DNA from: Clytia hemisphaerica
Taxonomy: Eukaryota; Cnidaria; Hydrozoa; Leptothecata; Clytiidae
Assembly (NCBI GenBank): GCA_902728285.1
Contig: CACVBU010000789.1
Location: 214,481-278,480, forward strand
DNA: 64,000 bases
Reading direction: 5' to 3'
Notes under the pieces: model-generated
Database searches by the model: none
Told to the model about the DNA's origin: nothing
The model's input: the letters and a program-made list of their open reading frames with translations, nothing else
Made by a program: the position numbers and the translations under genes
Shown: one piece after another, positions 19,632 to 64,000 of the stretch
How positions within the stretch are numbered: position 1 is the first letter of the stretch
How the letters are laid out: the number at the start of each line of letters is the position of its first letter

Positions 19632-22600
19632 GTATGGCTTTTTTATTGTCTTTTGATGTTTTTTATACTTTTTTTGTTAAATTTGTATTTCGTGGAGCTA
19701 ATTATCGCGGTAGACATCCAAAAAACAAAAATTTAGCTGTCGTGAAAATTTACCTTTGTGTAAACAGTCCTTTCATAAATAACGTTACGAATAAGAATTG
19801 CCTCGTTTTGAAACAATATGTAACGACACGATGCAAGGTGTAAGACTTTTTCTTGTAACAGAAATTTCAAAAGATTTACCTCATAAAGAACTGAGGTAAG
19901 TGTTGTTACATGACGTAGGTAATTATTATGAAAGATCTTACGCAGTAAACCTGCTTTCACCGTCAATACAATGCAACATTAAAGAATATTCCTTTCTTTA
20001 TATCATTTGACAAGATTTACAAATCCAGATCCATCCAGATTCTAAAGCTTTTCCATTAACCAGGAATTTGTTATTTTCGTGCTTTGGAATTCTCTTTGCT
20101 AAATTGACTTGGTACGATATTAGTGCCTTTATAGGAACGTGTCATTGTAAGTTTGTATCGTGAGAGAATTAGTCTTGTTTTTATAACATGTTTCATTTCG
20201 ACTTTGTACGTATTCTGTTACGTTAAAAAAATTAGTGAATCTGAATTTAGTTGTCAAGAGCCTTTTTAGTTATCAGATATTGTAGCATGTGCATCAAATC
20301 CACCAGTAGCTGTCTTTAGATGATATATATTGTCTTTAAGTCATGTAACAGGTACAAAACTCCCAAGTGAGTGACATGGTTTAAAATTTTGATCCCTACT
20401 TTTTTTAAAGAACTTCACAGAGTTTTTAAGCCTGTGGACGCGTTTTTAACTTTCTGGGTTTAAAGCCTAAATGAGTATTTTGGTCTATTAATTTCAAAAG
20501 AAACTGCATGTTTTAGAGTGTTCTTATAATACTTTGTTCTTATAAAAACAACATGTTTGCATTACTGAATGTTTCGCTTTCGTTCAATGAAATAAATTCG
20601 ATAAATTGTACAACCTTTTACTATCTCGGTGACGTCATAACGCAGTTTATTATGGTCGTCAAATAACAACATTACAGTAGGTTATTTTGTGAAAATTTAT
20701 TTCTCTCTTTTGATCGAGAGTTCTATTTAATTCTAGGCTGAGTGATTGACAATCTTATTTGATCTTTGATTGTCAATGTTTTATTTGCATGTTAGCAAGA
20801 GAAATCAGAAAGGTTGACGCCCACTGTGCTATGACGTAGAATGTCATTTTCTTTGTTTAACGGCCGTGAGTCTTGTTAGATAGGGGTATCCAAGCTTATT
20901 AATCATCTAGCGTATACAGTGTTGTGACTTTCGACCATGATGAATATAACTCTAAAATTTAGCATCGAAATTCAAAAACCTTTTGGGATCACATTCTTTT
21001 ACCTTTTGAATCTTTACAGCGTGTTTTTCTCAGACCGATATCTCATTTCCAACTTGTATTATTTTACAATGTGATTTCTCTGTAAATTAGCTGTTTTATT
21101 GATCAAACCTATTGCGTGATATTTCCAATCAGTCTTTCTCAGATTTCTTGGACCAGACAAAAACATAAAATTGTCATTCAATTGAGTGATTTTCCTGGGA
21201 AATGCGCTGGGCACAAATGTATTAATTCTTATAAGAATCAGTAATTTTTTGCCAAGGCTCGTCTGTGCGTATTTAAAGGCACTAAAACGAGCCTGTTCTT
21301 GTAAATTTTCATTATTAGAGCCTTAATTTAAAGTTGTATTTTGACTGTTATCCAACTGTCAACCCTTTGACCTGAGATTGACATTTTTATCTTTGCATAT
21401 CCAGCATCAGCATAAAAATTGAGCTGAGCAAGGTCTTTTTTATCGAAAGAGGAGAGAAGACGTGTATTTTACATAACTCTCATACTGTAGTTCAAGGTTT
21501 GACATGATCCTGTTATCTCTTTGTGTTTATATATCAAACACTCTTAAAAGAGGAGTTTGGTTTTAAATAACTTTGTTGTTTGTGAAGATAATGGATGACT
21601 CATCCTCAGACCTCTTGGATAAATGATGATGACATGAACGATTACTAGTAATTTTTTTGAGATATAATTTCTTGCACTTATTGCGTAATCCTTGTATGAG
21701 GCGGTTGATAGCTATGAAACTTGATGATTTTTACTTGTCATCATATCCTATTGAAAGGGAAGAGAGAGGGGGTGGTCGATCATACAAAATTGTTTTATTT
21801 GCCCATATTGTGATGACCGACAGTAAAAGTTAATCCTTATGTTTTATTGTTTTGGGTTAGCGAGGCAAATGATATGTTTTAACCACCCAGGCTACTCGGT
21901 GTAAAATGTGTTACCAGATCAACAGGTGTGTCATCGTCCTTTTTCATAAGAACTGAGTGAGTTTAAAAGAATCAAATCATTTTGTGGCAAAAGGTCGTGT
22001 AAAATATTTTTTATTTTAAGGAAATGAGAGTCAAAAATGTCAAAAAATAAGAACAATTTAAGAACAAAGCCGAGCTTGGAATGACTAAATTTTAGGCAAA
22101 GATAAGAATATCTTTAGGCTCAAAGTGCCAAAAAAATAAGAATATTACAAATTTACCTTTTCTTCTAAAAAATAGAGTGTACTGTTTGATCAAAAATTCG
22201 ATTAATTGAAAGTCATATTCTTCCTGGAAAAGTAATCTCTATTTGAAAAAAAACTGTATTTTTCTGTGAATCCTGATGGTTGGTAATAAAGATTTGTAGT
22301 CAAAAATAAAAAAAATGAGAATTTTAGAAATAAGTCATTATTTATCTGCTGCTATTATGTTTGGGAAATCACGTGACCAACTCTGATGACGATTCCAATA
22401 AAATTCTCACATTTCTACCTCAAGCTTTAAACATTTACCGCAAGCTCGCACATGAATGAAATGGACTTTAGTAAATGACAAAAATTCATACTTTCATCAT
22501 AGAAAGAGTATATATATGGGTGATATTTTGGTCGACTTTAAACCTTCTTATCTCTTCTTACAATTTTCTTGATAAAATATTTGCAAATGAGTAACGCGCA

Positions 22601-25600
22601 ACATCAGACAAAGTCTTACAAAAAAGTTGTTTAGCATGCTGACAAGTCTTGACATCATTTAATCTCCTCTATCATTTTATTGTTTTCGCTCGAACAAAAA
22701 CACGACCATATAAGGTGATGATTTTTTCATAACAAAATATTCAAAGGTTCTCAGTAAAAAGTGCAAAACATAACGGCGGAGGCTTTTGTCGGATATTTTC
22801 AGCAAATAACCAACAAAATATTTTGCGATAATGAATCTTTAAGTAAAGACTAGAGGGTAAATTTATTTATATCACGTGGGTATGTCACATTATACGGGAC
22901 AACCAATTACAAAGAATCTTTATTGTTGTCATGATGACCTACACACACTTAAAGACCTCAAAAATACTCTATAAATACTTTTGAGATGATTTATATCCGA
23001 AGGAGTTGGCTTATCAATCTCACGTTGTGATCATAAAAATGCTTAAGGTGCAAATGCCATTCCTATTTAATTGTAAATGAAACTAATTCAAATTCTATTT
23101 TAGATGACTTTAAAGCTTCCCTATTCATTTTTTTGTCGTTAAATTCACTCACTCGGTCATTCATTCGTTCGTTCTCTCAATATATCGATCGTCCATCCTT
23201 TGATTCGCGAACAATCGCAAATACGTGTTCGTTCGTTCGTTCGTTCGTTCGTTCGTTCGTTCGTTCGTTCGTTCGTTCGTTCGTTCGTTCGTTCGTTCGT
23301 TCGTTCGGTCGTTCGTCGTTCGTTCGTTCGTTCGTTCGTTCGTTCGTTCGTTCGTTCGTTCGTTCGTTCGTTCGTTCGTTCGTTCGTTCGTTCGTTCGTT
23401 CGTTCGTTCGTTCGTTCGTTCGTTCGTTCGTTTGTTCGATCATTCCCTCTTTCACTCATTTATTCATTCATTTGCTCATTCATCCATTAATTCATTCATT
23501 TGCTCATTTGCTCATTTCATCTGATGACGCAACATGCACATAACGGAAAGATTCTCTGTTCATTCAAAAAAACGAGAGAGGCACACCTTTCCAACTCATC
23601 AAATGACAAAGCGTATGACCGAAAAAGAGAAAAAGAGAAAAGACCCATTAAGTGTTTGTTTCCGAAATCCTATTATAATCGGTCAATCTCGTAAGCGGAA
23701 CCTTTAATATCAACGGAAGCGTCATTCCTCAGAAATAGTAGCCCTTCATCGGAAAACGAACTTGCAATCAGAGAATCTTATTCCAGTTTTTGATTTAAGA
23801 ACATCAAGTTTTCATTTTTATGAATTTCCAAAAATGTTCTACTCCGCACTAATTCTTGTATACAGTATTTTAATCATGCTAAAATATATAGGACTTTAAA
23901 CTATTTTGTACTTGGCTCATGCATGACTCTGGTAAACAATGTACATATTCGAATATCCTTAAATACAAAATGCTTCAGTTCTTATAATGAGGAAAAGACG
24001 GGTACTAGAATTGGAGTAATTTTTTTATGATTCTTGATATGCGTAAGTCAAGATGACGTCATATTTTCAACGGAAGCATCCGAAAAAAGCCGGATTTTGA
24101 CCTCCGTGTTTCTATTTTTAGTAACAGAGAGAGGTCAAATCCCGGATTTTTTCGGGTGTTTCCGCTACAAAAATGACTTACGCATATCAAGAATTGGAGT
24201 AATTTTTTGATGATTCTGGCAGAACATCATTCCATAAGTATTTTGCATCATCTAATTAAATATATTACCATTGCGTAATGTCTCTTTTGTTTTTTCGCTT
24301 CTCTTATTTCCTGCAATCGTTTGTTCAAAACAATTGTTCATGTATATATTCACTTGTTGGCTCAAAAGAAAGCAAATTGTCTCTTTGTTTATTGCATGAC
24401 ATTATAAAACTCGCCTGTCTATTGTCATCATAAATTACCGCATGTCAACTTAAACGCTCCCCAAGGGAATCACCCTTATTAATGATCAATCATTCCACAC
24501 GTCAATCTGCACCGAGTTGACTTGTATAATAAAACACTTGTTTTGATAGTTAGCTTTCATACTAAATACACATGTCAAATGGATTTTTACAACATTATTT
24601 CATACGAAACTAATCTGAATATAAATACGCGTAACCGATTTTCAAACTTATGAAAATTTAATCCCAGTTTTAAAAGTGCTGAATGTGGAGGGATTCGGTT
24701 GTTTGAACAATAAAGTAGTGTCATTTCAATTACGAGGGGTTTTATCTAAAGAATCCTACATTTACTAAGTATAGACAAAAAGAACGACAAATTTCATAAA
24801 GAACGACAAATTTCACCAGTTATAAACCCGACCGAAAGTGACTGTACCACACTTACACGTTTTTTTTATTAGAACCCAGTTTATAAGAACATTGAGGCTG
24901 AAATTCGTCGAAAAATTAAAAACATCTTAACAACATGCCCAGCCTTAAAGTCTATTCACGATAAGTGTGCACTCTTTTTTCTTCTACCTATAACTTTTGA
25001 AGGGATTCTTCAATCTTTATAAATTTGGTATCATTGGAAAGATATTTGTGAGTGGAACAATTTGAAATAAAAAAATCTTTAAAAAAATTCTAAAAATGAA
25101 GATGAAAATGAAGAAGAAAAAAATTAAGATCTTGTAGAAAAGTGCTATAACTTTCATTTTCACTGGAGAGATTTTTTGATCTTAGGAGATCATCACTGTG
25201 AAAAAATTTCATTAAAATATTTATTCAATATAAAGTTATGATACAAAGTTAATAAGTGATTGACCCCAAAAAACAGCAAAAAACTGCAGAAAACAGCGTT
25301 TTTAGACGTCAATCAGCTTATAACTTTGTTTGATATCTTTTGACTGAATGATTATTTTTGAGAATTTTTTTCACAGTGATGACTTTCGATGATTAAGGAT
25401 TTACTTCAGTGAAAATGATAGTTATAGCACTTTTCTACAAGATCTTCATTTTTTTCTTTTTCATTTTCATCTTCATTTTTATAATCTTTTTAAAGTTTTT
25501 TTTATTTCAAATTGTTCCACTCACTAATATCTTTCCAATGATACCAAATTCATAAAGATTGAAGAATTCCTTCAAAAGTTATAGGTAAATGAAAAAAGAG

Positions 25601-28600
25601 TGCACACTTATCGTGAATAGACTTTAGTTTCCTCTTTTCAAGCAGTTTTAACCGAACTTAAGCATAGATTTTCTAAAATCGAGAGTCAAATATTGTCCAA
25701 ATTTTACCAATTTTAAGTGCTCTTTCTTTTGCATGATAATGTCGATTTAGAATAGTCTGAAAAATTAAGAACGCATTTAAGAACATTTTAGGCTGAAAAT
25801 GGCTAAAAAAATAAGCACATCCAGACTCAACCAAATTTTAGTTGTTCTTATAAAAAAAAACGTGTACGTATTCATTCCTCTTGGTTTATCACGGGAATTA
25901 ACTGCATATGGTTTTTAAAGAACGACAAATTACGCATGTGTTTTACAATGCAGGATTCTTAAGAGTAACAGACTGTTACCATCCATAAATTTATTCTCTG
26001 CCTGAAGAGACACAAAACATATTCTTACGCCCATATTTACCGAAATCATGTGGCCAAAATGTCTTATTTCGCGATAGTGAATGGATTTCATTGTGCCACA
26101 GCATTTTCGCTTTAGATAGAAACGTTCACTTTTTGAATTATTAAAGGACTTTATAGTTCAGGTCGAGGGATTCTTGAGTTTATTACGGAAAGTGTACTTC
26201 ATTATGAAAAGTATGTTGTTTTGCAAGATATTTTTAACCCTTTATCGCAATCATCTCACGTCATCTTTCGCTTCTCTTTGGGTACTTACTGTTTACGAAT
26301 GTCAATTGACAAAATACTACACATGAAATCCCTTCAGAATTCCATGTTTTTGTTGTGACAAAAGCCCCTTATATTTTCACTGTAAACACTCCGAACCTAT
26401 CAAGTATATTTTTACTTCATCGTTGAGACTTCTATTAAGATTGTGGTCGACCTCTCTTTCGCTCTTGATGACGTCATTTCTGATTTGACTCTGTCTGGAA
26501 CCCAATCCTTTTTCAGGAAACCAAAATCTCCTTAAGCTGTCTTGTTGGCCTCCTTTCACCATGACTTTTAATCTATGCTATCTTTTTTTATAAGAAACAG
26601 GAAGTTTCTGGTGCGGATCATTTGTTCGTAATCTTTACACTTTTTACCTCAAATCCTACCCTGTTTTAGTTTTAGAGCTAAATTATTTAGTTTTACACTT
26701 CCAAATTTTACTACTTTGACCCTCAAGTTGCTTGAAATCCAATACTTCCAGGCTTCGCATTATTCCTAAATTGTTCTTATTTGTTTGCGATTTTGAGCCT
26801 CATTTTTCTCGTAAAATTATTCTTATAAAAAAAGTGTATTTTGCTGATGCAACAAAGAACAGACTCGTTGATAGCAGGTTAGTTCAGCTCTTTCCGGTGC
26901 CCATGTGCGTCTCAATAGTAGAGGTCTCAACTGAATTTCACGCATTAACGCCAATGTTTTTTTGAAATTCACGCAATTTTGCTGAACTTTTTATCACTTG
27001 TTGCATTTTTGCGAGAAAAACTAACCAAATTTGGTCTTTCCTTTTCGGAAAGAATACACACCCTTTATAAGAATCTATAATGTCTTACATATTCTTGATG
27101 AAAATACTAAGACTGTACTATAAGAAAATCACCATCACGGAATTTACATGATAATTTTAAATTTGGATCCTAACCTAAGAATAACGTAAGAACATTTTAT
27201 TTATTTTTATTTATTTTTCTAAACATTATAATTTCCTTCATCTCCAAAAATATTGGTTCTTCTTACAAGAAAAGTGTTATATAATGTATATACTGTGTGT
27301 ATAAAATATATAAATAACTAACAACTCGAACAGATACGGGAAGAACGACTCATCGGAGGGAATAAGGAAAACTAAGTGATGCTCGGAATCAGAATACTGA
27401 GATATGACGTTTGGAAGTTTGTTCGATTAGTAATAATTAGACTGGATAACGGCTTGTTCGTAAGATAGTCGTCCTAGATAAATTATGGCAGACAGTAAGA
27501 CATAAAATAAACTATTCTTAGATAATATCTCATGAATATATTATGATTTTATATAGGCTGAGGACTAGGCCCCGACTAGGCATAGAAACAAGACTGTGAG
27601 AAGTGTGAGAAAAAAAACTATTGTGCTTCTCCAGAAAAGTTAAGAATCCATGAATCCATGGTAGTAGGAGCACAAACCTTGGGATCCGTACTGTAGCATC
27701 TTTCGTAGGACTCAACTGCATGTGATTGGTTCGAAAGTTCATATGATTTTGAGACTTTCTTGAAAGGGGGCCCGCGAATTAGGTCTGGCGTCAAACGTTT
27801 TGTAAATGCTTATTTTATATGGAACCAGCAACCTTTTTCTACAGCTTTAAATTAGAATTTTCCTTAGCCATTACAGATATCTGAGGGTGGATTGGGCACT
27901 TGTGTTATTGACCAAATTAGATCCATAGATGCAATTTGATTTGTTTCAACATCTCAGTGTGGAAGTTTGCAATGGGCTCTTCCAGAAAAAATTCGTACAT
28001 GGGGGATGGATGATATTTAGTCCGGGGGGTAGCAAAAAATCATCAAAATTTGCCTTGTCTGGGGGTAAATTTGCTCTGTCCGGGGGTAATTTGGGGTGTC
28101 CGGGGGGTCGGAAGATGCTTGTCCGGGGGGTAAAACCTATTGTCCGGGGGGCCAAAAGTCACCCTGTTCGGGGGGTAAATCACTAAAAATTGTTATATCC
28201 TCCACCCCCATGTACAATTTTTTTCTGGATGAGCCCAATGAACAAACAAAATATTTCTTAACATGTAGACGTGTAACAGAATTTCCCTTTCTGCAAAAAA
28301 AATGGCATACGTTCAAAAAATAATGCTATTACAATAACTGGTTGTCATGGCGACTTGACAACTTCTCTCTCTTGTTAGTTGCTATGACATCAATGACGTC
28401 ATCAAAACCATTGAATGTTAATGATGGCTCAACACACCATATCATTTTCTTCTCCGTCTTATTTTTCGAACGTTAAACTTACATTAATAAGTAATGTATG
28501 AAAATTTCAGCATTACGTAATCATTTAACAGGGGTTTTAAACTTGATTCACACAATTTATAGCGAAGGAACTAAAAAATGACTTGCTAAATCGAACTCGA

Positions 28601-31600
28601 ACGGAGAATCTAATTTGCTCGAATAACAGAGAGTGTTCGGATTAAAGAGAGACCAAAAGAAAGAAAGTACCTAGAAACATTAAAATACGATGATTACTTT
28701 GTCATAGTGAAGAAACAACAATAGGAGGCGGTATTAAGATAGAGGTCGGAATTTTTCTGCTTCAGTCTATTTTCGTTGCCCCTGCTGTTCGGACAATTTT
28801 TATTTTCTCCGCGTGCCTCATCTGAAAAAATGCAGTTTGGTTGCGTCATTTGATTTAAGTAGTTATCTAGTTAATTGTTATCCCATTGTAATGAATGACT
28901 TCTCTTTTCTTAAAAGAGCTTTAATTATCTCATGTAATTAGTCAGGGAATCCCCTGGGACGAGTTGTTTGTGCTGAGATGATTAATGAAAAACAGTTTCG
29001 TCATTTAATGAGCTTTATCTAGGAGTCTGGTACGAGATTCTTTTTGCTCCGGAACTTGAAAGCGACGATTAAAGTAATTAACTTAATGAGCCTTCTCGAC
29101 GACGAATATCTCGTTTATAAATACGTAAATGCTGATTAAATAAAATAGATCTTGCCCACCAGACCTTTTCGTTAATTATAATTTTTATGATCACAATTAA
29201 AATCATATAGTAGTATTACAACAAATTTCAAAATCTTAATTTTGTCTTACCTGAACACGTTTTTTATACAAAAACAAACTACATGTTTTTTTTATAAGCA
29301 AGTGTATGCCCCTTGGTCAGGCTCGTGTATGCATAAGTTCTCAAAGCATACAGGCATAGATTTTGCTTATTATATGCTTATGAATTATGCTTATGATTCC
29401 CCTCGAGCCAAGTTTTTAGTGAAATTTCAGAAATTTTGTAAAAAAAATTTCAGATTTTGGGAGCAGTGGAATGTAGGAAACCGTGGAAAGGGGAAAGTCT
29501 TTTTCTTTACTTGACCGCTATCAAACCTTTTTAAACAGAAAAAAATGACAACTGGAAAAAATTTTCAGGCTGACATATATGCTTATGTTATGTTTAGAAA
29601 ATCTGCAAATCTGAGCCTTCATATGCTTATAAGCGTTATGCTTATAAAAAAAACATGTATATCAGAACATTAGGCTTCAATGGCCAAAATGTTAGAGCAA
29701 GGTAAAAACATTTTAAGGCTTCGCGGACTCTAAAACCATTGAAGCCTGAATCCAAGCCTGAAAGGCTAGACTCGAGAGTCCTGGATGGGATATGAAGCGC
29801 CCGCGCGTGGTTTTTACACAACCGCCGGATTGAAAGTAAAATCTATCGCTAGATTCCAAAGAATCAAGTCCTCAAAAACAAAGGAGCCGCTAGATACAAT
29901 CCGTCGTCATGGTTGCGGCGCGGTGCGTTCTGGATGGGAAATAAGTGGATTCACTTTTTCTTGCCTGGAAAAGGCTAGAGATTCTAGCCCTTTTGGCTTT
30001 AAAACTTAATGTCTAGAATACCCAATTTCTTAGGAAAATGGACTCAAAAATTGGCGAAAATAAGAACACGTTAAAAACATTTTTAGGTTTAAAACTCAAA
30101 AAGTTAAGAACACCAGAAGGCTTCACAAATTTTGGATGTTCTCATAAAAACAACGTGTAATATAAAAACAACGTGTAATATGCTAAACGGTTTTTATAAG
30201 AACATAATGCTTCAATGGTCAAAATATTTAGAACTAGTTAAGAGCAAGCATTGGGTGTTCTTATAAAGAACGTGTCACAATGAATTTGTAAGAATTTTCT
30301 TGATTCTTATAAAAAGTGCACTGTATATCTTGCGTATAGCTTCGCTCTACGGCGATGAATTTTGAAATTTCCATCAAAATGAAAGCGACCATACCATTTT
30401 TTAACGATATAAAACTACGTTCTTTTTTCATAAGAATAATTTTATATGAATAATTAGGCTCAGCAATACGAAAAATGAGAATGAATTAAGAACAGTCCTG
30501 AGCTTAGCATGGCTTGATTTTAAGCAAACTGATAGTGAATAAATTAAATAAATTAAGTAAATAAATTTTTGCCCTATAAATTAAAACAGGATAAGAACAT
30601 CAAAATAAAGAAATGATAGAACAATGGGAAAACTTGAAAAATTTGTAGTTCTTATAAAAAAGAGTGTAATGTTTTTTTATGGTTTTATTTTATTTTATCA
30701 AATTTCTGTTGTTTGAAGTTGACCCTCCCACACATCCTCTATAAAGTCCCCCCCTCGAATATTTCTTAACTCAAAAGACATATTACATCTGCTTTTTATT
30801 AAAACAAAAGTTAGATTAAAACTCCAAAAAAGTTTTTTTCTGTGGAAAAAAAAAAGAAAGAAAATGATAAAACGTCACCTTAACTTGAAATTTTAGAAGA
30901 AGTTTCTTGTCTGCAAAAAAAAAAGAATGAAGAAAAATATGGTTGCACAACTTTTTTCGACTTTTCCTTATTATTTTTCAAAGATCAAAATATAAAGAAA
31001 AAAGGGAACATCTTTCGAAAGATAATTCCCTGACGTTTGTCTCCTTTGCTATTTTTCTTTTGTAATAAAAATGAGCTCCTTTCTTTCACGCTCGAAATGT
31101 CCGTTATTCCATGTTTGCAAATCTCCTTATATGGTAAGTGAAGTATTTTCCACGATCAAAGGGTTTGACGTCAGTGTAGTGGATTGGCTTGTCGCAGCTG
31201 AAGGCTAGAGTAGTAGTGCAGTTTTGAAGAGAAGGGAAGGCTGTCTGGAAGGAATTTTTAAAAATTCGGATTCATAAACATTCTTTACTGGATAATAAGA
31301 CTTGGAATTTTACCTATTGCTGATTTTTGTTGTTTTGAATAAATTGTGAACACTGTTATGTTTATATGGCATATTCGTCTTGGACGCAAAGCATGAACGC
31401 CAGCCGATTTCAAAGACAACAATGTTATTTATGTGACTGTCCAAGAGCTCCTTGGGCTATTCTCAATGACTTTACTGAGCCTGTTTGTCGAGGATGTTGT
31501 AATTATGAAGGACCAGATAGAATCGAAGCAGTTATTGACTACGTACGATCCCTCAGAAAAGGGTGGGAACACCAAGTACGAAACTCGAAAAGTTTAAATT

Positions 31601-34600
31601 CTACGGGAACCTCGATTGGTTCAAGCCCAAGTCCTGGGGGCCACTCAAATGGATCTATTGATGCTAATGGAACTCAGTATCCTTTTTCTGGTCAGTACCA
31701 CAGTTTAATCCCACATCACAGTGCAGAGCATATGCGATTCTTACACTCTGTGAAGTCTGAACAAGCACAACAGCAACAACATGCTCCTGGAGAAGGAGAG
31801 AACTTTCCCCCTAAAACTCCCTACGGTCCAAATGAACCTGGAGGCCCACCATCATCAGGAAATCCTAGAAGTGCAGAGGAAATTAATCATGATGAGCGTA
31901 GATTCATGCCACATCCAAAGGATTTACCACCGTCTTCCAGGATGCCCATTATCAGACGTCCACCTGAGTATTCTGAGTACCCTGAAGTTGTACGTGAAAC
32001 ACTTGAGATTCTGAACACATGTGTGCCATTTGATATCAGATTTAAAAAGGACCACAATCATGTCGGAAGGGTTTTCCTTTTCGAAGCAGCTCCAAGGACA
32101 GGAGCCACGTCATCAAACGAATATGAACTCAAACTTCACTTGGAGTATCCACGAGGCTCAGAGAGTTTTACGCAGAGTGTTTCTGCTGTTGCAAAACAAA
32201 TGTATCAAGACTCTACGAAAGAGCTTGGGCGTGGCATTTCATCTGGCTTCAAATACCTTGAATATGAGGTTCAAGGAAGTCCTAGTGAGTGGCGTTTACT
32301 TGCTGATCTTATTCCTGAGGCAGTACGATTCTTCAAGGACCCGATTAGTCGTAATTTCCTTCCTATAAGAGTTACAGATCACCCAACATACCACCCAATG
32401 TTAGGTCCACCACCCTTCAACCAAGCAAAATATCGCCACAAACGTAAAGCAGAAGATTTGGAGCCGCATGTAGCTCCTTCGAGGGCCCCACGACGCACTT
32501 ACAAAGAACGAGAAGATGAGCAAATTCAAAGACATTTATGGATGCAGTCTCAGGTTGATGCTTTACGTTTGTCCATGGCACATTTAACTGCTCCTCCTGA
32601 AACTATGCATATGAATACAATTCGCTCATCTGCCATGATGGATCACCCCCGTCATCCAGCTCCTTTACCTCATGCACCCATCACACCCGGGTCTGCTCCA
32701 CCAACAACACCCCATCAACCGTCACCAAAAGGACCCTGGGGAGTACCAACGTCCATGGCTGCTCTGATCAGTGCAGCAGGAGCAGACACAAACCATGGAG
32801 GAACCTTACGAGAAGGTAGGAAGGCATCCTCAGAACATATAAAATCAAAATCCCCAAATAATGACAAAGAGCCTACAGAGAAAGAAAAGGATGAATCGCA
32901 TAAGCTTGAGGAAAATGTTGACCGCAAGGAGTTAGGCCCTGTACCAGAAGGCCACACAAAGAAATCTGGAGGAAAAGGTGTCAGCCAGTTGAAGTGTAGT
33001 ATCTGTGAGGACTGGCTTGAAGACACTCATTTTGTACAGTGTCCCTCAGTCACAACTCATAAATTCTGTTTTCCCTGCTCCAAAGACAGTATTAAGAAAC
33101 AAGGACTTGGAAATGATGTATTTTGTCCTAGTGGTAAACGTTGCCCTCTCATTGGTAGCAACCTTCCATGGGCTTTCATGCAAAGTGAAATTCAGACAAT
33201 CTTGGCGACTAAAGGTCGACCACAAAAGATGAAGGAAGAACCTTCAGCACCTGTCAAGGAAGAAGAAAAACCATGATTTTTTAGGATTTTAATCCAGGGG
33301 TCTGTTTTTTTTGTTCTTTATTTTTCTTTTCAAAAAAAGAAATTTCTGTAGGTTTGTTTTTTTGTTCTTTAGTCTAAAGTGACTTGTTTTTTCTTTCAGA
33401 GTTGTCTTTTTTCGCCAGTCTCGTGTGTTTTTAAGTTTTAGGGTGAATTACTTTTTTTTGTGTTTTCCTTGATGTTCTTAGAACATTTAATGTTAATTTG
33501 TGTGTCTGAAAAAGAAGAAACCCTTTCCTTTTGTACATATTATTATAACCTAGTAGTTGTAAACGTATGCCAATTGATAAAGTAATCATTTTTTAGACGA
33601 AAAAGCTTGTAATATACGACTTTGTAACATACATCAATCTGGACGGATTAAAATAACAACAATCTTGTTTAGTTCAACAAATTATGGAATTATTGAAGTT
33701 GTTTCAAATATCTTTCCTCTAATCTCGTCATCACTGATATTTGGCTTGAAAACAAAATCCTAAGTCGTCTATATCTGACTCAGTGAAAAGAAACTATTTG
33801 TGATAAAAGTTTGATTTCTCATACCCTTTGAACCCTTTGAACTTGAAGATAAATTGGGAAAGAGAATATTTACTCAACTGAGCAATTATCTTTTAGATAA
33901 GTACATATTTCTTGGTGACGTGACAGGTCACTTTACTTTTTGATACATGAGCTTTTTCTTGTGTTTTTGTTTCTTTCCATCTATCCTTATTAGTCATTTT
34001 TTCTATGAAGGTGATTAAATCAAACAATTTTCCTATTTTGTTTTCAGTGTATATCATTGGTTACTCATAATTGACTTCTTGTAATTGAGAGAGAAAGTTT
34101 GAAAGCCGCCTTTCTTTTGCCAAAACTGCCTCACTTAACACAAGATTCCTTCAAGTGACGTCACGTTAGGATTATTTTTGTCGTTTTGTTTGTATTCTCT
34201 CGCCTCGTTATCCGTTGCTTTTTTTTATGAATGAATCAAAACTTTTATATGATAAACATTGTTTACTAAATAATTTCGTGTCACTTTTACACGAAATGTT
34301 CTTAAGCTGGAGTCAAAGCCCTTCAAATAAAAGAAAATGTTCGAGTGTTATAAATGCCTCTCTCTATATATTCTCTTTTTAATGAAAAAAGGTTTGCGTC
34401 TGACTGATAAGTTACCATGGCGACTGCTAAACATCTTTCGCTGTTCAAACACAAATCGTTTTATTTCGAAATGATAAAGCAGAGGGTTTTTCTTCTTAAT
34501 GTTTTTAATGAAAAAGCCTTCTTTACTATAAAGTTTCTCCTTGGTGTCGGTAGATCTCTTTTATTGAGATTTTCCAAAATATTGTTTTCGAACAAAAGTA

Positions 34601-37600
34601 TCAAAAGGTCCTGTTTTTCTCCAACTTTAGAAAAAGATGTTCAAACTGGCCCCATGTGTGTTTCTTTGAAGGAAAATCTTTATTAATTTGCACAACATTA
34701 TTACGTCATTCGAATTTTTGATATCGTCATGATCAGAAAAAGGTAGAAAATAGACAATTTTACTCCTAGGAATTAAAATTAGGCGAGCCAATTACCATGA
34801 GTAAGACTAGTTTGACCTCTTCTTTCTTATTGCGGTTTTTGAGTAAAAATAAATGGAATCCCTGGAAGTCACGATATCTGAAAATCTGTATTCACTATGA
34901 AACTCTCCATTGAAAACTCTTCATTCTTTGATCTATTTTTACGAGATGTTTTGTTTTTTGAATAATATATCATGATTACAGTGAAAGACATTTTACTATC
35001 AACGAAACAGTGATTTTCTCTGTGAATAATGGATAAGCGGCCCTTCGTTTGATAAATGACGCAATATTTTTGATTTTGGGAATGATTTCAAATTGCGCAA
35101 TCTTTTGCACGATAAAGATGTACTTACATTTTTTAAGTACGCATTTTCTTTATAAGAACGTCCAAATTTTTAGATATTAAAATCAACTTTTTCCGATTTA
35201 ACCCTGTTAATGTTCTTTTTTGGCATTTTGTGAATATTTTCTTGCAATTTCCTGAAAAAATTGGTATTATATGTCCTCAAAGCCTTAATGTTCTTAATTT
35301 TAACTTGTTTTTAGTATTTTGTACATTCAATCTTTTTGTTCTGATAAAAAAACGTGTTTAATCACATTTGATAGCTTTACTCTATTCAATGAGAGTTTGA
35401 ATTTGTTTAGGTGGTTCCCTAACAAGTTAACCTTGAAAGACCCCTTTTTGATCATTAGGGAGTTTCCCTGTCCTCCACAAGCGATTATTTTTACCGCCTA
35501 TATTTCTGAGGGGTTTTGACAACGCTCGCTAAAATGACTTTTTATGACTGCTGATATGTTCAAGTGGCTAAAAACCAAACTCATCCCCGTGTATTCCAGG
35601 CTTTATTTACGTTGACACCAGAGAATATTATCTAGCGCTGTCAGTAAGCATTAAAACGGATGATAAAAATACTGGGAACGAGGTTGACTGAAAACGCGAT
35701 ATTTGGAGCGAATTTATCTTCCTTGTATCATACATTACACGTTTTTTTAAATAAGAACATAATGATTCGATGGCCGAAATATTAAGGACCAGCAGTTAAG
35801 AATATTTTAAGGCTTTATGGACTATGAAATGATGCCCAATTTCTTAGGAAATTGTACCAAAATACTCGAAAAACGGTGAAATTAAGAGCATTTTTAGGCT
35901 TAAAACTCAAAAAGTTAAGAATATCCGAAGCCTTCAAAAATTTGAATGTTCTTACAAGAAAAAAAAAGTGTATCGTACAAATCTCCAATAGACGATATCG
36001 GCTTCACATGAAAACTCAGATTTGACCCCCAAAATTGCCCACAATGCTTTGCACGGAAAAAAGTTCACGGTGAAATTTTTTCCGCAAAAAGCATTGTGGG
36101 GAATAGACGATATCGGCTTCACATGAAAACTCAGATTTGACCTCCGAAAATTTCCCACAATGCTTTGCGCAGAAAAAAGTTCACGGTGAAATTTTTTCCG
36201 CGCAAAGCATTGTGGGGAATTCTCGGGGGTCAAATAGGAGTTTTCATGTAAAGCCGATATCGTCTATTATATTTTGGTAAGAAAAACCATGAAAAAGTGT
36301 CTGGTAAATTCCCTTAGGGTCTCAAAATTGGACCCTGGCATGCAGAGTAAATTGAGTCGACTTTGAGCAAATTTGGGTTAAAAACGACTAGTGCCACTTT
36401 TGGAAAGCCTGAAGAGAATCGACCTTTTTAACCGCCTTCCACAGTGGAAATACCATTCTAAAAAACGACAACTATCCGCTTCCCAGCGTTATCCTTTCAA
36501 AACTTTCTACTAACAACAGCCTTAACAGGTTTAACCTTGCCCTCCATAAGATTTGAGCACTTCAAAGTTTGAATTTTCGAACCTTAATTCTCAAAAATGT
36601 AAATGGAAAAAAGGTGCGTAAAAACTTTATTCGGATTAATTTCGCGAACCAAAGAAATTCCATAGTAGTTCCAAGAAATGGATAAAATTTACTTGTAAGA
36701 AATTAGATTATGATCCCCCTCCAGGCCTCATTCTTATCGAATCTTGTAGGTTTTAATCACCCAACACGAGTTTATGTATCGAGGGGAGATGAATCGAGGG
36801 GAACGGTATAAAGCAAAGTTGACATGTCTCCAAAATCACCGTCCACTTTGGTCGACGACTGTAAAAACACCAAAATACTGTCGTCTGTTTAGGTGAGCAA
36901 AGGGGATATAGAGCCGTACATCAACTATCGACTTTGTTTTGTATCATTTCACTTACCGTCGCCCTCGATATCCAGAGGCGTATTTAGGGTAGGTCAAGTA
37001 GGTCAAGTGACATAGTTCCGAGAAATTGAAAAACATGAAAAATTGTGAAACAGGCTTTCTTATTCCTTTTAGTGATACACAGTCCCCTTCAGATGCCATG
37101 TCTTGTATCAACTTTATCAATTTTATGCGTGCGGCAGTTAAAACTTAGACTAAAATTTATCTCCGCAGTTTTACCTCTCTAATGTTTTGCGAGTGAACCT
37201 TTCGCTATTTAGAGGCTTTTATTTTGATAATCCGAAAACCTATCTAATACCGCCCGACCCATATCGCCCCGCTTGAGTGATTTAGCAACACCCTTTTTGA
37301 CCTCTTTCACCCTAGCAAATCAGGATCATATTATTACCGAGCTCAACTTCTCTAAAAATTCTTGAGGTCATCAGTTGAATGCTGTCACTCGAGCGAAGCT
37401 TTCGACCCTTATTCAATAACTTCATCGCGACAGTGGGCCAAATTGTACAACCGAGTTGAACAAAGTCCTCGACTTCTCATTTTTGTAGTAAGTTTGTCAA
37501 TGTTTGGTTTTATAGTGTTTTTAGAGTACCAAATTAAGATATATATGATGGATGTGATAGTTATGAAAGGAAAGAAAGGAAAGAGAGGAAAAAGAGGAAA

Positions 37601-40600
37601 GGAGACAGAAGAGAAGAAAAAAGGTTCTTTACCTTCGATAATTGGAGAGTTGATATTGTCCATGTTGTCTCAAGTCTTGTTAGAGTTTTAAAAAGAGGTT
37701 TATTTCAACCACGTTTTTCGATTTTGAAAGTTCAGGGCCGTCGGAAAGATGGCCGTAGTTTTTCATCTATTGTTATTTTCTTTTTTTCTTTGTTCGGCTA
37801 GTTTCTTTTTTTCTTTTGTTCGGTTACTTGGGGTAGGCGAGTTCCGTTAGTGGGGGTGGGCGAGTTCCCTGTGGTGGGGGTAGTAAAATATATTTGTGGT
37901 CGGGTGTTCGAGGTGGGGCGTGTTTTTAATGGCGATGGTGGTGGGTGGTGATAAATAGGGCGGTCGAAAAGGGCGTGTAGAAGAGTAAGGGAGGGATTTT
38001 TTCCTATTTTCCCCTATTGGTATGTATTGGCTGGGCGTTCAAAAAAGGAGGGGGTGTGTATTGGCTGGGCCTTCAAAAAAGGAAGGGGTGTGTTTCCGGC
38101 CAGACTTTTCTTATTATTTATTTTGTTTGTCTGGTCGGGCGTTCGAAATAGTTTGCGTTTCTCGAGTGATAGGTCAAAGTTAAGTTTGTTTCCTTTTCCT
38201 CCGTTATATTTACTTTTTATGGGTTCTAAGTAGGGTCTTATAATTCTGATTATAAAGGTCATTTAAATATAACAAATTTATGATAGAAAAAAATATATAT
38301 ATGAAAAATATGATAGAAATAAGATTTGATAGAAATAAAATTAGAACAAGTAAAAACGGTCAATATTTTGAAAATAAGTCACAATATGGTATAATTGCAT
38401 GTTCCCGGTTATTCTCTGGATTTTATTCTCTGAATTTTGCCCTCACTAATTGTTCCTTAATGTTTTTGTGTCTTTTGTATATAACAACTGGTTTTTCTGG
38501 TAATATATGTTTTAGATCTGGATCCTCCTGTACTATTCTCCAATGTTTTCTCAATATGTTCTGTAAATTTTAAGGTGCTCGTAATATTCTACAACATATG
38601 GGAGTATGTTGTTTCTTCGTATTCTCCGGTAATATGTTGTTTGTCTCTTATAGAGACAGTTCATTTGAGTCAGTCCTCTGATTTTCTTTATATTGTTATC
38701 AATAATTTTGTTGGAGTATCCGCGGGAGAGAAGGATACTTTTTAATGATTTTAGTTCTTTTCTTAGAATAATGTTGTCTGTTGTAAGTAATCTATACCTC
38801 AATGCCTGGGTGTAGATAATGTTGGTCTTAGTGTGTGGCGGATGGTATGAAGAATAGTGTAGGAGCATTTTTGCATCCGTTGGTTTTGTATATAGTTTGC
38901 TCTTAAAGCTTCTTCCATTATTGCCAATGTATATTGTGGTGTCCAGAAAATTAGCTTTTCGTTTCGAGTATTCCCATGTAAATTTAATCGTCGGTCGGAT
39001 GTAAATTATTTAAATGACTTAGAAAGTATTTCAGGCTCTTCAAAGTGCCTTTCCATAAAAGAAAAATGTCATCCAGGAATCTTTTGTAAAATTGTATGTT
39101 GTTTTTGAAATTTTTTACAAGTATATGTTCTTCCTCGAACTTACCGAGGAATAATGTGGCATATATTGGCGCGACCTTAGTTCCCATCGATGTCCCGTGA
39201 ATTTGTTTGTATAAGTCCTCATTGAATTCAAAGTAATTGTTTTCGAGTACAAAGAGGAATAGTGTTTGAAGTATTCTGTTGTTGGGTGTAAATTTAGGGA
39301 GCATATCCCGGTGTTTATCCATATATAATAAACAGGCTTCTATGCCTTCTTCCTTATGCCTTCTTCCTTCCTCTTTTAACTCTAACAAGACTTGAGACAA
39401 CATGGACAATATCAACTCTCCAATTATCGAAGGTAAAGAACCTTTTTTCTTCTCTTCTGTCTCCTTTCCTCTTTTTCCTCTCTTTCCTTTCTTTCCTTTC
39501 ATAACTATCACATCCATCATATATATCTTAATTTGGTACTCTAAAAACACTATAAAACCAAACATTGACAAACTTACTACAAAAATGAGAAGTCGAGGAC
39601 TTTGTTCAACTCGGTTGTACAATTTGGCCCACTGTCGCGATGAAGTTATTGAATAAGGGTCGAAAGCTTCGCTCGAGTGACAGCATTCAACTGATGACCT
39701 CAAGAACACTTCCCATTAATCAACTGTTTCATTAATCTTGAATTCAAATCAACACAATAAACTAATACCCACAAAAATACAAAAAATCTACTGAAACACA
39801 AACTATCTACCACCTACCTACCGTATTACGAGGCAGACAATTTACTTCGTGAATACTTTTTTAAAAAAAGAGATTGCTCTCCTTGAGTCAAAAGACTCCT
39901 TTTTAGAAAAAACATATGGAGAAACTTGTTGCAAAGTCACCCTATCATCCCATATCATCCCATCGCCTGTTGATTTTGTTTGGGACCAGAATGACGAAGG
40001 TGATCTCACTATTTCGTGGAACAAGGTGCTCCAGATGAAGTTCTGGAAATGATGTTTTGCACGTGTTTAAAGAAGTGTGTCCGTGGATCGTGCCCTTGTG
40101 TGGATAACTCCCTCAAATGTACAGATGCTTGCACCAACCATGAATGTGACAACTTTCAATCAAATGAGGAACCAGCAGAAGAATATGAAATTGATTACGA
40201 GGACGATAATGATGAATGTGAGTATGAAAGTGATGAGAGTGACGATGAGGAAAGTGACATTGATATGGAAGTCAGTGAAGATGATAATTTTGATGACGAT
40301 AAAAATCTCTTTTGTTGAAATTGTGCTGGTAACCAATTTTTATTTTATTTGCTAATTATACTAGTGCTAGAAACTATTTTTACGATATTTTAATAACATT
40401 TAATCATTCAAATTGATCTCAAACACTTAATATGACCAAATTAGAGAAAGGAAAGTCGTCGGCCATTTTCGGCCTCTTGGGGCCCGTTGAAGGTCCCCAA
40501 GGCCCCTTTAATTTTATTTTTATTTTTTATGATTCCATTCTATTGAAATGAAGTCCTTCTCAAAATTTGAAGCTAATAAATCAATTGCATCGAGTCTTTG

Positions 40601-43600
40601 TCAGATTTTACCAAAAATAGCGAAAAAAGCGAAAATTCTAGTTCTATCTTCCCCGCCCTATTTTTCTGAGAGGCCAACTTGTCATCTTGTACATTATTTT
40701 ATGTTTTAGTACCCTATTGTGAACCTTTTTAAAGCATTTTCAGTATCCTTCATTAACTTTACATGGGTATACCCCGCAAGCATCAATCAAGATTCAAAAA
40801 TTTCATTTTCTGACCCAAGTCGGCCTTCTGGGGCCAGCCATGGGTCCCGAAAGTCCAATTTTGAAAAAAATATTTTAAATTTTGATTTTACTTACCAAAA
40901 TAAAGTTCTCCTCCAAATTTGAAGTAAAAAGAACAATTTTATCAAAAGTTATGGCTTAAACAAGTTTGCACGACCCCCAAAAACCATTAAAATTTTACCA
41001 CATTTTTTGACCAACGAACCCTACATTTGGCCCTGAAAATCATATTAAGCTACCGATTTGACCAGTCCACCCGACTAATTCCATAACTAGGATGCCTAAG
41101 GATACCAAAAAACCACCTTAGGCTTACTCCCTCTCCGGAGCCCAAAATTTTGTCTAGCTGACCGACTAAAAGAAGTTCTTTGAACTTGTTTTTAAAGTGG
41201 TTTTAACTTCAGTTCTTTGCAAAAGAATATACTCAGAGTATCTCTGTATATTTTTATGTTTCAATTTATTATATTTTTTACTGCATTTGATCTATGTAAC
41301 TACGTAGAGTGGTTATAGTTTGTTTTGTTGGCATAACTTTTGTAAAAAATGTTTATGTTTTTCTTTGGCTGACTACATATAAATATAGGGTAATGGGAAA
41401 ATAATTTCTGTTAGATAATTTTGAATACGTCTTCGTTACTTTTCGGCTTTTAGTTTGGCTCAAAAACATTAAAAAACAGCCAAAACATGCTTAGAAAGTG
41501 ACCCTCAATCATGGACCCCATCCCTTTGTTTACAATTGTTGAAACTTTAGCTGCCATTTTATTTTAAAATTATACTTCTTCGCAGAGGTCTCCGTACGGG
41601 AAATTTTTTATCAAACAGACAATGCACACAGAGTGTACTACGCTACGATAATCGTGAGATACACTCTGGTACAGAGTAGCCGATATACGGCTAAAGACAT
41701 TTTTAGCTGGCGAGTGTCTACAAATATAACATTACGTAATGTTTAAATTTTCTGTGAGGCACCAAATCATAGATTGGAAAATATATTTGGATTTTGAAAA
41801 AAAAGTAGGCGGAAGGAAGTTTGCTTGTTTTTCTTCCTCCTTTCTTTTTTAATGTGGAGATTTCGTAAAAGATGAGAATTAGATTTATTGAATTTAAGTG
41901 CCCTGATGTATCTTCTGTGTGCACCAACAAAATTTTGCTTCATAAAACTACTACATTTTGATGCTTTAATTTGGACTTGCATGAGTGTATAATTTTTTAC
42001 CACACTGGATTCGTTGATCACTTTGGCTCCAGATAATTGTTTTGTCAGTTCTACAGATATGTTGCAGATTATTTCAAGGTATTCTAGTTATGTACAGTAC
42101 ATTTTGGGGGGTCATATTGAATATTTCTGACATTACTTCTTTATGATTCTACAAAAGGGAGTGTTGTTGTTCCTTCAACAAGGGCCTTTAAAGGCTTTAA
42201 ATGTTAAAACAAACAAAGAACTTTTCTTCAGCTTTGGCATTTCACTTTTTAATACTGTGTGGCCTTTGTATCTTTTCAGGTACTTAGCTTCAATTCTTTG
42301 AAGAGATTGGAGTGTTTCTGGTTGTCTTCTTTTACTTTTGTGTTTATATTTGTATTTTTTGAGCTTTGACCGAAGAGCTGATGGAAAAGTTTTGATAAAT
42401 TTACAGACCAGATATCTTATAAAAGCAAAAGTCAAAAATGAATCTACAGACTGTACATAATGCGCGCATCAGATTGTTTTTTATCTTTTTTCTGTTTTGT
42501 TTTTCTGGTCTGGGATTCGAATTTCAAATGTAAACATTCCATTGAAAACGTTCGAAACGATCGTTTTTGCGCGCACATCAATGTCAATCAAATTACTCGC
42601 CAAGATTTCCTTTGCGAACCGGAAAGCGGTTGGTAGTTATTGGAACTAATTTTCGCGGGTTTTAATTTTAGCGTTTTTCGCGGTTTTTCGTCAAAATCGC
42701 GAAAATTTGATCCCGCGAAATATTTTGAGAGCTGAAAACCGCGAAAATTAATTCCCGCGAAATAAAATTTTTTCCAATTTTATCGAAATATTTGAAAAAT
42801 CCCTAGGAAAATGAAAGAAAATTGTCCAAAAAAGGGCAAAACCGCGAAAATTAAAACCCGCGAAAATTCCAGAATGGAAAAAACCGCGAAAATTAAAACC
42901 CGCGAAATGCAATTTTCCGGATATTTTTTTTCGACCGCGAAAATTAGTTCCCGCGAAAATTAGTTCCAATAAGGTATACTACCTGTGGTTTTGTAGAGGT
43001 CTGCGATTCAGACTAGTAATGACCTTGAGTAACTGCTTATATATCTGGCCGCCTTTCATTTAGAGATAATATGAAGCTGAGAGACATAGCTAGAAATAGC
43101 TGAAACGACCTAGCAAAATTTCTGAAAAATCGGGGTAATAGCTATGAGGCTACGTACAGCTTCTCTGTCGAGTTTATTAAAAAACAATACTCAATTCACT
43201 TTTCCTAGCTTATCTCTTTCACAGTTTTTATTGAGAGAAGCTCAGTTTCCAGAGCTGAAATTTGCTGAAGTGACCCAGTTAACTTTTGAGTTTGATCTGA
43301 AATTTTGTGAAAGTCCAAGTAACTTTCACGTCAACTGTGATTTTATAGCTTTAATTCTTATGGATCGATTGCTAAGAATTGATCGTCAGGGTATTAAGTA
43401 TAAGCACCAGTTGTCACTGCTTTAAGTTGAACTAATAATATTTATTTTTTAGCAAAAATGAAGCATTTTTCAAAGTCTTTTAAAACTTTGTTTTTTACCT
43501 GCTTTTTGGTTGTTGTTGTGAGCGGAAATGAATATATTAGAATGACTTGACACCATTTAATTACCTCCTATTCAATTCAAAACATAGAAAATAATTTTAG

Positions 43601-46600
43601 GGATATAAAGGCCTATAAACTCAACTATAACTCATCTATATTTCTTGTTTTGGGGAAACGGACATTGCTCCACATCAGTATCTATTTTTTTACCACAAGC
43701 GGTTAATTAGCGTAAAAAGCTAGTTAAAACGTGAGACAGGGGTATACGTTGAGTAAAAAAATTCTCATAATTTGCAAAGTACGAGTGCGATACAAACTAC
43801 GTCCGTCTAAACAAAAGTGGAGTCTTGCATAGAATAACTCGGATAGCGATTAAACGAAAATGATAAACGCCTTTCTAAGAACCAGACTTGAACCACTTGG
43901 CTTCAAAAGTTTGACCTACTTGGCAAAATTCCTAAATACGCCACTGATATCCTCCGATACATAAACTCGGTACTGTCAAGACGCGGGGTGGGGGTTACTC
44001 TTTAGCCTCTATTTATCAACCGTTTCTTTCTATACAAGTGCCAGGTGTATTATCGAACCCGTTAGTGACATAGTGACGTCATCTACAATCAGATTTTTTG
44101 TCAATAAAAGGGACTTGCAAAAAATCTACAATAAAATAAATAATTTCTTTTTTTTTTTAGTCCAACAAAGACAAATACATCAGATAGTCGACAATTTCAT
44201 TGCGAAGTTGATCAAATCTTGGATGTAAGTTATCTGTTACTGTAAAAAACGGCCCACCTCCCGTAAAATCACCAACAGTGTTAAGTAAATCGGTAAAATC
44301 ACGACGACGAACGAAAAGTAGTGAGTTTAAACCAATCAAATTTCGTATTTTCACTAGCCTATTACATTTTTCTTCCGTCGTCGTGATTATCCTGGTATAC
44401 TTAACCTCAATAATAACTAAAACTGTTGTGAAGTATGTCTTATAAATGGAGGTTCGTTCGAGAAAACTTTCCATGGGCTGCTAGGATTTCAACAGCAAAT
44501 TTTCCATCTCCTACAACGACCCTACAATTATTCTCAAGCGTGGCTTTTATATAATAATTTTGTTGCTCTTTAAGTTTTTATTTTTTACTGCGGTTTGACT
44601 CCTGCAATGTGCAACGGTATTCTAGATTTGTGAAAGAGGACTTGCAAACTCAAAAAGTTATCTTTTTACTTCAGGGTACGAATGGTTTGAAAAAAAGTTT
44701 ACAAGATGTTAATCGGGAAATGGTATGAGTATTATTAAAGAACTATCAGCAAAAGAACCTTGCCGCTGTGAAAATAAATTTGGTGATGGCAGTACTTCTC
44801 AATTCGATATGACATAGTCTTATTCACTGCTAATAGTAGATTAACGTCATCAGAAAGCTCTAAAGGAGTGGGCTAATTTCCCATCTGAAAGGAATGATAG
44901 TCGGCCTTTAATATACCGCATCCCCAGTTCGGCTCGACGGCCCACGTGCGTAAGCGTGAAAATATTTTGGTTTGACCCGATAATCCTTGAAAACGAGGGA
45001 CTGGGTTTAAGCCTGCCACCGCAAAATCCTTGACTTGGTCTAGCGAACTTCCGTAAACAACTTCCATATGTTTCTCGACCTTCGGAGCTTTAGTGTTTCG
45101 GAAGAAAATTTCCAAAGCGAGTGCCAGAAATTGGGACCCATCGATTTATTAAACAATTAAAAGCATTCTACGTTTCAAATTAGGAACACAATGTGTCCGC
45201 CATTATGCTAGTCTAGCAAGCTAGACGACTAATTCAGACATATTAGAAATAAAGCAAAAAAGTAAATTTTAGTTTATACAAACTAAATCCCGTATCATTA
45301 TTTCTGTTTATTATTAGTATTACATGCATTATAAACGTCTCCAGTCTACCATTATGCCTTTCCTTATCAAGGTGCTAGACAGAGAAACATACTATTCGTG
45401 ACTCTACTCTCTTCCGTCTTCGTTGTTGAAATGATCACCAATAGTAGAGGGCGACCGACTTGTTGTAGTAGTAGTGCACTTGTATATTTTTGCTTGGAAT
45501 TTCATAATCTATCCGATGATAACAATCATCTTTTTTGAATTCAATGCAATTCAATTGGAAATTTGCTTGTAACATCAGTATTTTTAGTCAGGCCTTATTC
45601 ACGGCCCCGTCTCTAAATACTCTTAAAATCCTACCTATAGAAAATGTTTGAGTATGATTGAAACTGTCACTGTTGTTGCATATCTGTTTGAAGTTAACCT
45701 TTGTAATAAACCAAACCAATGTATGAGCGACCCCAAGGTTGGTTCACTTTTACAATAAAACAGAGTGACGTGTAAGACGTGTTTGCTTACATTTCAGAAA
45801 AGTATCTTGAAAGGCGACATTGACTTATCACCAGTAACAGACTCAAGTGAAAGCGAAAGAATAATCCATCATTATCAATGTCCACAAGAAACGGGTACTA
45901 GCACGACGGATCTCATTTCTGAAGAATGTCCTCTGGATAAATATCTGGTGATTATAAATTGGTCTATTAGTATTTGTAGTACAGTGGAGTCTCTTTAACT
46001 CGAATGTCTCCTTAACTCGAACAAGTTTTAGGTTCCCTTCAGTTAACAATGCCTTAAAATAAGCCATTCTTTTTAACTCGAAATTCCTTTAACTCGAACA
46101 AATTTTGCGTCCCCCGAATAATGGAGACTGCATTGGATGTATCAAAATGTAATGTTAATAGACTAGTTTCCTTCAGGGTCAATTGTATGGATTGATCGAG
46201 GGTAAAGCAGGATTAATTTCAATATTTGACCGTAGAAACCCCTCTTATATGTTGATTGCTTTAAGATTTATGTGAGCTTTTTTTCAATGAAATTTTTTTG
46301 ATTCTCTCTATCTACAGGCACGTCCTCGCAATGAAGATATCATGAAATTACAAACGTCACGTGAGCTTTTTCCTCTTTCAGCTTTAATCTCAAGAATGCA
46401 AGTGTATAATGGGTGGGACGGAATTTTGTCTATGTAGTTTGGTAAAAGGTCGATCACAACCACTGAGTAAATTTTCCTCATACTACATACTATTACTGTG
46501 AATTCAAAGTCCGCATCTTTTATAGCGATTGTCTAATATACCGGGTGACCCACGAAAAAGTTCAGACGTTTCTCGACGTCCTGAGGCCGAAAAAATGTCC

Positions 46601-59359: not shown

Positions 59360-59673
59360 GTTATTTACTCGTTTTGCCTTTTTGGTTTTGATTTTACTTT
59401 TTGATCGTTTAGGAGGAAAAAACGCTTGCCGTTGGTTTCAAAAATATTTTCAGTTATCACAGGTTAAAACTCTAGATGACCATATTTGATAAAATAAACA
59501 TTAAAGAAAATAAAAACTTATCAAAACATAGAATAAACCCAAATGATTGACAATCGAAATAGTCCCTTAGGATTCGTGTACCTGACAGAATTTTGCCTGT
59601 CGTCAGTTCTCAACTTCAGTTGAGCTAGAATCTGAGAATGTCTGTCTGTGTGTCTGTCATGTGTGTCTGTCAC

Positions 59674-63973: not shown

Positions 63974-64000
63974 TTTTATGTTGATTTTTGCGGTCTGGAA

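Follow-up and report, generated by a model that had tools for sequence, protein, structure and literature searches.

An IRF2BP gene probably nested on the same strand in a long TALPID3 intron of Clytia hemisphaerica, and the age of the pairing

In the genome of the hydrozoan Clytia hemisphaerica, a complete gene for the nuclear co-regulator IRF2BP stands between two same-strand blocks of exons resembling those of TALPID3, a gene of the cilium, which raises the question of whether both blocks belong to one host gene with IRF2BP in its intron, and whether such a pairing is a recent accident or goes far back in the gene order of animals. The locus was studied in a window of 64,000 nucleotides (NCBI GenBank assembly GCA_902728285.1, contig CACVBU010000789.1, positions 214,481 to 278,480, forward strand), and coordinates below count from its first letter. 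It is considered likely that a single + strand TALPID3 gene carries IRF2BP as an independent, nested, same-strand unit and that the two genes stand within an old linkage.

The IRF2BP open reading frame (ORF) spans 31339-33276 on the + strand, with an upstream in-frame stop at 31336, an ATG at 31366, and a TGA stop at 33274-33276. It matches PF11261 (E=7.5e-27), PF25457 (E=2.1e-47), and PF25454 (E=4.4e-32), and the union of an N-terminal zinc finger, a middle domain, and a C-terminal C3HC4 domain in a single protein places it in the IRF2BP family. On the gene model, the complete gene (31366-33276) lies within one TALPID3 intron (19632-44160), the longest of the model, between + strand TALPID3 exon blocks. 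The same-strand nesting put forward in the original prediction thus appears sound at the level of the sequence. The features of the nested gene are as follows.

31366-33276, + strand: IRF2BP coding sequence (636 codons and a stop, no intron; Pfam domains)
31133-31142, + strand: donor-like site 5' of IRF2BP (score 10.1; last exon base 31133)
34326-34331, + strand: possible IRF2BP poly(A) signal (first AATAAA 3' of the stop; ATTAAA at 33647 and 34014)

The gene had been described as intronless, which holds for the coding region, whereas the 5' untranslated region may be spliced, being a candidate for this by virtue of the donor-like site after 31133. The IRF2BP coding sequence has a CpG observed/expected ratio of 0.51, vs 0.93 across the whole TALPID3 long intron, and low CpG of this kind would be expected if the nested gene were methylated over its body in the germline.

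The host gene was recognized by profile and by comparison with the human protein. The whole spliced model matches the TALPID3 family PF15324 with E=1.6e-24 and 86.4 bits (cut-off, 27), which makes it a member of the family. In the 3' block, the profile matches follow in order on the + strand, with 337-446 in 44161-47815 (E=3.4e-7) and 762-923 further downstream (E=2.5e-15); the block 53946-57183 corresponds to 958-1155 below the cut-off (E=0.041), and 48312-50455 gave no Pfam match as a block. The 737-1155 part of the whole-model match stops within exon 56086-56253, leaving the last exon, 56978-57183, without profile support, and the true 3' end of TALPID3 is not fixed, the model end at 57183 being provisional. 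The human TALPID3 sequence taken as query itself matches PF15324 over its full length (2176.8 bits). The 5' block was found to be collinear with its residues 100-414 (score 98, against a mean of 63 and a maximum of 90 in 300 shuffles), and exons 18932-19631 alone reached a score of 83, attained by none of 300 shuffles (mean 48.5, maximum 72), while exon 18105 alone gave no signal, its score being reached by 291 of 300. Similarly, 44161-47815 aligned with residues 408-537 at a score of 89 (shuffle maximum 74), the aligned part beginning in exon 45798-45947. With tblastn, the best single-exon match of the same query was at 53.1 kb (E=0.005), and the match at 19.0 kb had only E=1.7. Of the two blocks, the upstream one has the weaker evidence for TALPID3. 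Since the human alignments of the 5' block (100-414) and the 3' block (408-537) adjoin, both blocks meet at a single point of one protein. The earlier claim that TALPID3 parts stand in order on either side of a complete IRF2BP is supported by the adjoining human alignments and by the ordered PF15324 matches of the 3' block.

The exon spine came from a simple ab initio gene-finder, for which three ORFs of the window served as training set, run at exon penalty 16 while the long intron was masked, and was then edited by hand (15575 for 15497, and 18932 for 19034). The choice of N-terminal exons shifts when the penalty is 19 instead of 16, and for the first three modelled exons (15455-16016) the support consists of splice scores. 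A parse at low exon penalty was set aside because it over-predicted. The edited model has 27 exons from 15455 to 57183, with a stop-free translation through 1,372 codons. The spliced protein used for the homology searches differs slightly, having an extra, uncertain N-terminal exon (15052-15195) and exon 18105 ended at 18272. The modelled features of TALPID3 are the following.

15455-15575, + strand: weak candidate N-terminal exon (acceptor 10.1; no homology; end picked by hand, the gene-finder favouring 15497)
15780-15826, + strand: weak candidate exon (acceptor 9.9, donor 8.9; no homology; missing from the penalty-19 parse)
15941-16016, + strand: weak candidate exon (acceptor 9.2, donor 5.8; no homology; penalty 19 favours a start at 15860)
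16860-16932, + strand: exon, beginning of the human 100-414 alignment (acceptor 4.7, donor 4.3; missing from the penalty-19 parse)
17532-17673, + strand: exon inside the human 100-414 alignment (donor 12.9)
18105-18284, + strand: exon (acceptor 10.6, donor 6.4; alternative end 18272; insignificant alone)
18932-19196, + strand: exon, significant with the next one against human TALPID3 (donor 9.7; gene-finder start 19034)
19493-19631, + strand: final exon 5' of the long intron (acceptor 7.1, donor 8.9, phase 2; LLHEIL against human LLEQIL)
19632-44160, + strand: long intron holding IRF2BP (24,529 bp on the gene model)
44161-44224, + strand: proposed bridging exon (acceptor 10.8, donor 7.8; phase 2 to 0)
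44675-44722, + strand: exon in which the PF15324 337-446 match begins (acceptor 11.1, donor 5.9; phase 0 to 0)
45798-45947, 46318-46360, 46990-47155, and 47746-47815, + strand: exons of the human 408-537 alignment and of PF15324 337-446
48312-48542, 49068-49410, 49722-49885, and 50189-50455, + strand: exons forming an open chain (weak collinear tblastn matches)
51442-51519, 51818-52038, 52250-52383, and 53076-53236, + strand: exons matching PF15324 762-923
53946-54149, 54580-54761, 55573-55745, 56086-56253, and 56978-57183, + strand: exons of the block set against PF15324 958-1155

The joint across the long intron is the critical point of the model. An intron of 25 kb from 19632 to 44674 had been proposed; the donor after 19631, however, leaves two bases of a codon (phase 2), whereas exon 44675 begins a codon (phase 0), so that a direct joint from 19631 to 44675 breaks the frame. 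Exon 44161-44224 (phase 2 to 0) restores it, and the intron is therefore 19632-44160; the proposal keeps its very long intron holding IRF2BP, and its 3' bound is corrected to 44160. Between 19.7 and 44.6 kb, three exon-like pairs have an acceptor of at least 10 and a donor of at least 7.5, among which only 44161-44224 is open and of phase 2 to 0, a count that is descriptive rather than a test, as the thresholds were placed just under what this exon, selected beforehand, scores. The remaining 25 introns of the model measure 114-1,075 bp, and the long one is about 48 times the median (approximately 510 bp, all 26 introns).

Several observations speak against a single host gene, and some of them would suit a split TALPID3, with a short gene ending at about 19.7 kb, another that has a promoter of its own at about 44 kb, and IRF2BP between them. 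The two blocks are joined by a model built from genomic DNA alone, and neither homology signal extends to the bridging exon: the Pfam match begins only in 44675-44722, and the alignment with the human protein only in 45798-45947. At penalties 16 and 19, parses of the unmasked sequence chain other ORFs of the intron, drop both 19493-19631 and 44161-44224, and do not connect the blocks via homologous exons, a failure that is taken as a sign of the crudeness of the gene-finder; one of the ORFs that they use, at 40.1 kb, is transposon-like by eye. The extreme length of the intron would also fit a split. As for the profile, neither the 5' block nor its single exons matched Pfam TALPID3, part of the 5' block placed before the 3' block abolished the Pfam match of the latter, and two test proteins joining both sides of the long intron gave no Pfam TALPID3 match. 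The genome search for the TALPID3 family yielded one exon of this gene below the cut-off (E=0.488, with 18 candidates scored); this search is insensitive and is therefore weak evidence for a single copy, although it disclosed no second TALPID3 place. Against a split stand the alignment of the blocks to adjoining parts of one protein and the well-scored exon 44161-44224 that restores the frame, and a divided TALPID3 is judged improbable. An assembly error joining unrelated pieces could be suspected from the repeats inside the long intron; the window, however, is interior to a contig of 590,702 bp, the exons are collinear on both sides of the intron, and fish, too, have this gene pair linked (PMC4236578), points that together make such an error extremely unlikely.

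For a single TALPID3 gene with IRF2BP nested in it, transcription would proceed as follows. TALPID3 would run on the + strand from 15.5 kb or earlier to about 57.2 kb, its pre-mRNA would be transcribed through IRF2BP, and exon 19493-19631 would be spliced to 44161-44224. The polymerase would pass the IRF2BP unit as well as all AATAAA hexamers of the intron, which would then be removed, and IRF2BP would form a transcription unit of its own, with a promoter and a poly(A) site separate from those of the host. Reading through poly(A) signals had been raised as a worry, which is not peculiar to this locus: the AATAAA count of the long intron is at background (26 against an expected 30.1, standard deviation 4.9, in 60 first-order Markov sequences). 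Isoforms of TALPID3 ending in IRF2BP had been suggested as well. No AG dinucleotide occurs between the in-frame stop at 31336 and the ATG at 31366, so that a TALPID3 isoform spliced into the IRF2BP frame ahead of the ATG is excluded for AG acceptors. What is left of the suggestion is an internal fusion, a candidate route that may be offered by two of the eight acceptor-like sites listed inside the ORF, those being in frame (31941, the better with a score of 9.4, and 33159).

In human cells, nested genes are reported to cause exonization, retained introns, and cryptic polyadenylation of their hosts (PMC3192792, in excerpt). By analogy, mild interference between TALPID3 and IRF2BP is plausible. 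A stronger proposal is that the nesting yields fused or truncated TALPID3 products, through splicing into IRF2BP or cryptic intronic poly(A) sites, that regulate TALPID3; it draws on these human reports and on the in-frame site at 31941. Splicing to that site, however, would drop the N-terminal zinc finger, entry before the ATG is closed, and AATAAA is at background, so that regulation of this kind has little probability.

A recent insertion would offer a different account of the pairing, in which IRF2BP is a lineage-specific retrocopy placed into the TALPID3 intron, as its intron-free coding region and the young, abundant mobile DNA of the host intron might suggest. A retrocopy would be expected to have its parent gene at another locus, and to carry a poly(A) tract. 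In a six-frame search of the 417-Mb genome, the 52-amino-acid IRF-2BP1_2 zinc-finger family had one match, namely this IRF2BP (four candidates scored), and no long A-run was seen 3' of the stop within 33180-34900. Of the 14 genomes run as controls for that search, the one from Escherichia coli also passed the cut-off, which is unexplained and is to be held against the interpretation offered here. Human IRF2BPL is also intronless (PMC11709191, in excerpt), and intron loss via retroposition is therefore not needed. With the linkage of the same gene pair in fish (PMC4236578) added, a retrocopy is regarded as very unlikely.

The preferred reading, a nested IRF2BP within an old linkage, finds its bearing on age in the gene order of vertebrates. 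ARID4A and ARID4B, as well as TOMM20 and TOMM20L, are taken here as paralogous pairs, and KIAA0586 is taken to be TALPID3. According to PMC4236578, the gar interval bounded by dact1 and timm9 holds both talpid3 and irf2bpl, and in tilapia and zebrafish the two genes are by dact1; between Timm9 and Dact1, Talpid3 was kept in tetrapods, and Irf2bpl in Latimeria and most teleosts. A human 1q42 interval lists ARID4B, TOMM20, and IRF2BP2 successively (PMC5740572, in excerpt), while the human 14q23.1 region includes ARID4A, KIAA0586, TIMM9, and TOMM20L (PMC7457130, in excerpt). The IRF2BP-TALPID3 pairing is thus probably old, a piece of animal gene order and not a recent accident, and the original remark that it is not obviously functional overlooks this probable linkage in fish (PMC4236578). 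The likeness to the Dact1 locus of ray-finned fish is that the same two gene families are linked. The two differ in that IRF2BP lies inside a TALPID3 intron here, nesting not being stated in the excerpted source, and in that timm9, arid4a, and psma3 occur there (PMC4236578), whereas the 264 kb around the present pair yielded none of them. No earlier report of IRF2BP nested in TALPID3 was found in the literature, as judged by titles and the beginnings of abstracts.

The loss of company is a further point against an old neighbourhood, as TOMM20, TIMM9, PSMA3, GGPS1, and part of ARID4A were not detected by tblastn with human queries in the surrounding 264 kb. That search gave two matches (E of 0.36 and 0.62), read as chance, and short exons can escape it. 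Only the IRF2BP-TALPID3 part of the neighbourhood is therefore seen to persist here. Most simply, IRF2BP, TALPID3, TOMM20, and ARID4 would have formed one ancestral neighbourhood, from which the vertebrate copies each lost different members. In the ancestor shared with vertebrates, IRF2BP and TALPID3 would have been neighbours, nested or adjacent, near ARID4 and TOMM20, and the vertebrate genome duplications would have left TALPID3 with ARID4A and TOMM20L, IRF2BP2 with ARID4B and TOMM20, and both genes together in some fish, gar among them. Following bystander-gene models, the pair would most likely be held together by IRF2BP regulatory DNA in the TALPID3 intron. The bolder version, in which the same-strand nest itself is ancestral to bilaterians, was kept for more than half a billion years by IRF2BP enhancers in the TALPID3 intron, and was undone by vertebrate duplications and losses, is tentative and rather doubtful.

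Nested genes as such are already known and ordinary. They make up approximately 1% of human genes and 10% of fly genes, with two thirds on opposite strands (PMC4394429, in excerpt), and 75 parallel vs 152 antiparallel nested pairs were counted in human (PMC2330155, likewise in excerpt). IRF2BP/TALPID3 resembles same-strand nested genes generally in that a complete gene sits in a host intron (PMC2330155; PMC4394429). The vast majority of gene overlap is not conserved across long distances, unlike the IRF2BP/TALPID3 linkage, which seems to extend beyond vertebrates, and the three nested pairs found to be shared by Ecdysozoa and Deuterostomia are antiparallel without exception (PMC2330155). For instance, Timp in Synapsin is an old nested pair whose locus saw duplications as well as losses in vertebrates, in which it is similar to IRF2BP/TALPID3; it is antiparallel, however, whereas the present pair is same-strand, an arrangement described as selected against (PMC2330155). 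Nesting kept across phyla on the same strand would be out of the ordinary.

The long intron also holds mobile and repetitive DNA. An inverted repeat at 24946-25274 and 25298-25626 has arms of 329 bp, 87% complementary and 23 nt apart, and as a query (24946-25626), it had at least 84 genome matches, the better ones at 96-99% identity (40 of 3,874 first-look candidates scored); it would be a foldback-like element, both young and abundant. On the - strand at 37359-39715, reverse transcriptase ORFs are Penelope-like by eye, with a weak RVT_1 match under the cut-off (E=0.0041), and inverted arms of 338 bp, 99% complementary and 1,672 nt apart, occur there. A long (TTCG)n tandem array at about 23225-23440 is open in several frames and produces spurious ORFs of FVRS repeats. 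An Rfam scan of the window at gathering thresholds gave no match.

Just downstream of TALPID3, a - strand ORF (57692-59437) combines eight ephrin-receptor-like cysteine stretches with a class 3 lipase domain, a pairing not known from elsewhere, no search aimed at it having been made. An ORF of 885 amino acids on the - strand (61346-64000) runs past the window end and is 2OG-oxygenase-like by eye, with no Pfam match at 0.01. Beyond the right window end, a WD40 beta-propeller ORF lies on the - strand about 1 kb away (L020:1088-2500), and a major facilitator ORF (PF07690, E=1.5e-23) lies about 25 kb away (L022:4869-6260).

The locus is judged more interesting than first thought for its probable age, and less so for its transcription puzzle. 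It is also a place where an annotation pipeline may split TALPID3 or lose IRF2BP. The locus unites gar talpid3-irf2bpl, human ARID4A-TALPID3, and human ARID4B-IRF2BP2 as remnants of what was probably one old neighbourhood, and it provides a concrete same-strand nested pair for testing whether enhancers hold unrelated genes together. An ancestral nest would mean that a nested pair of genes on one strand has been conserved across phyla.

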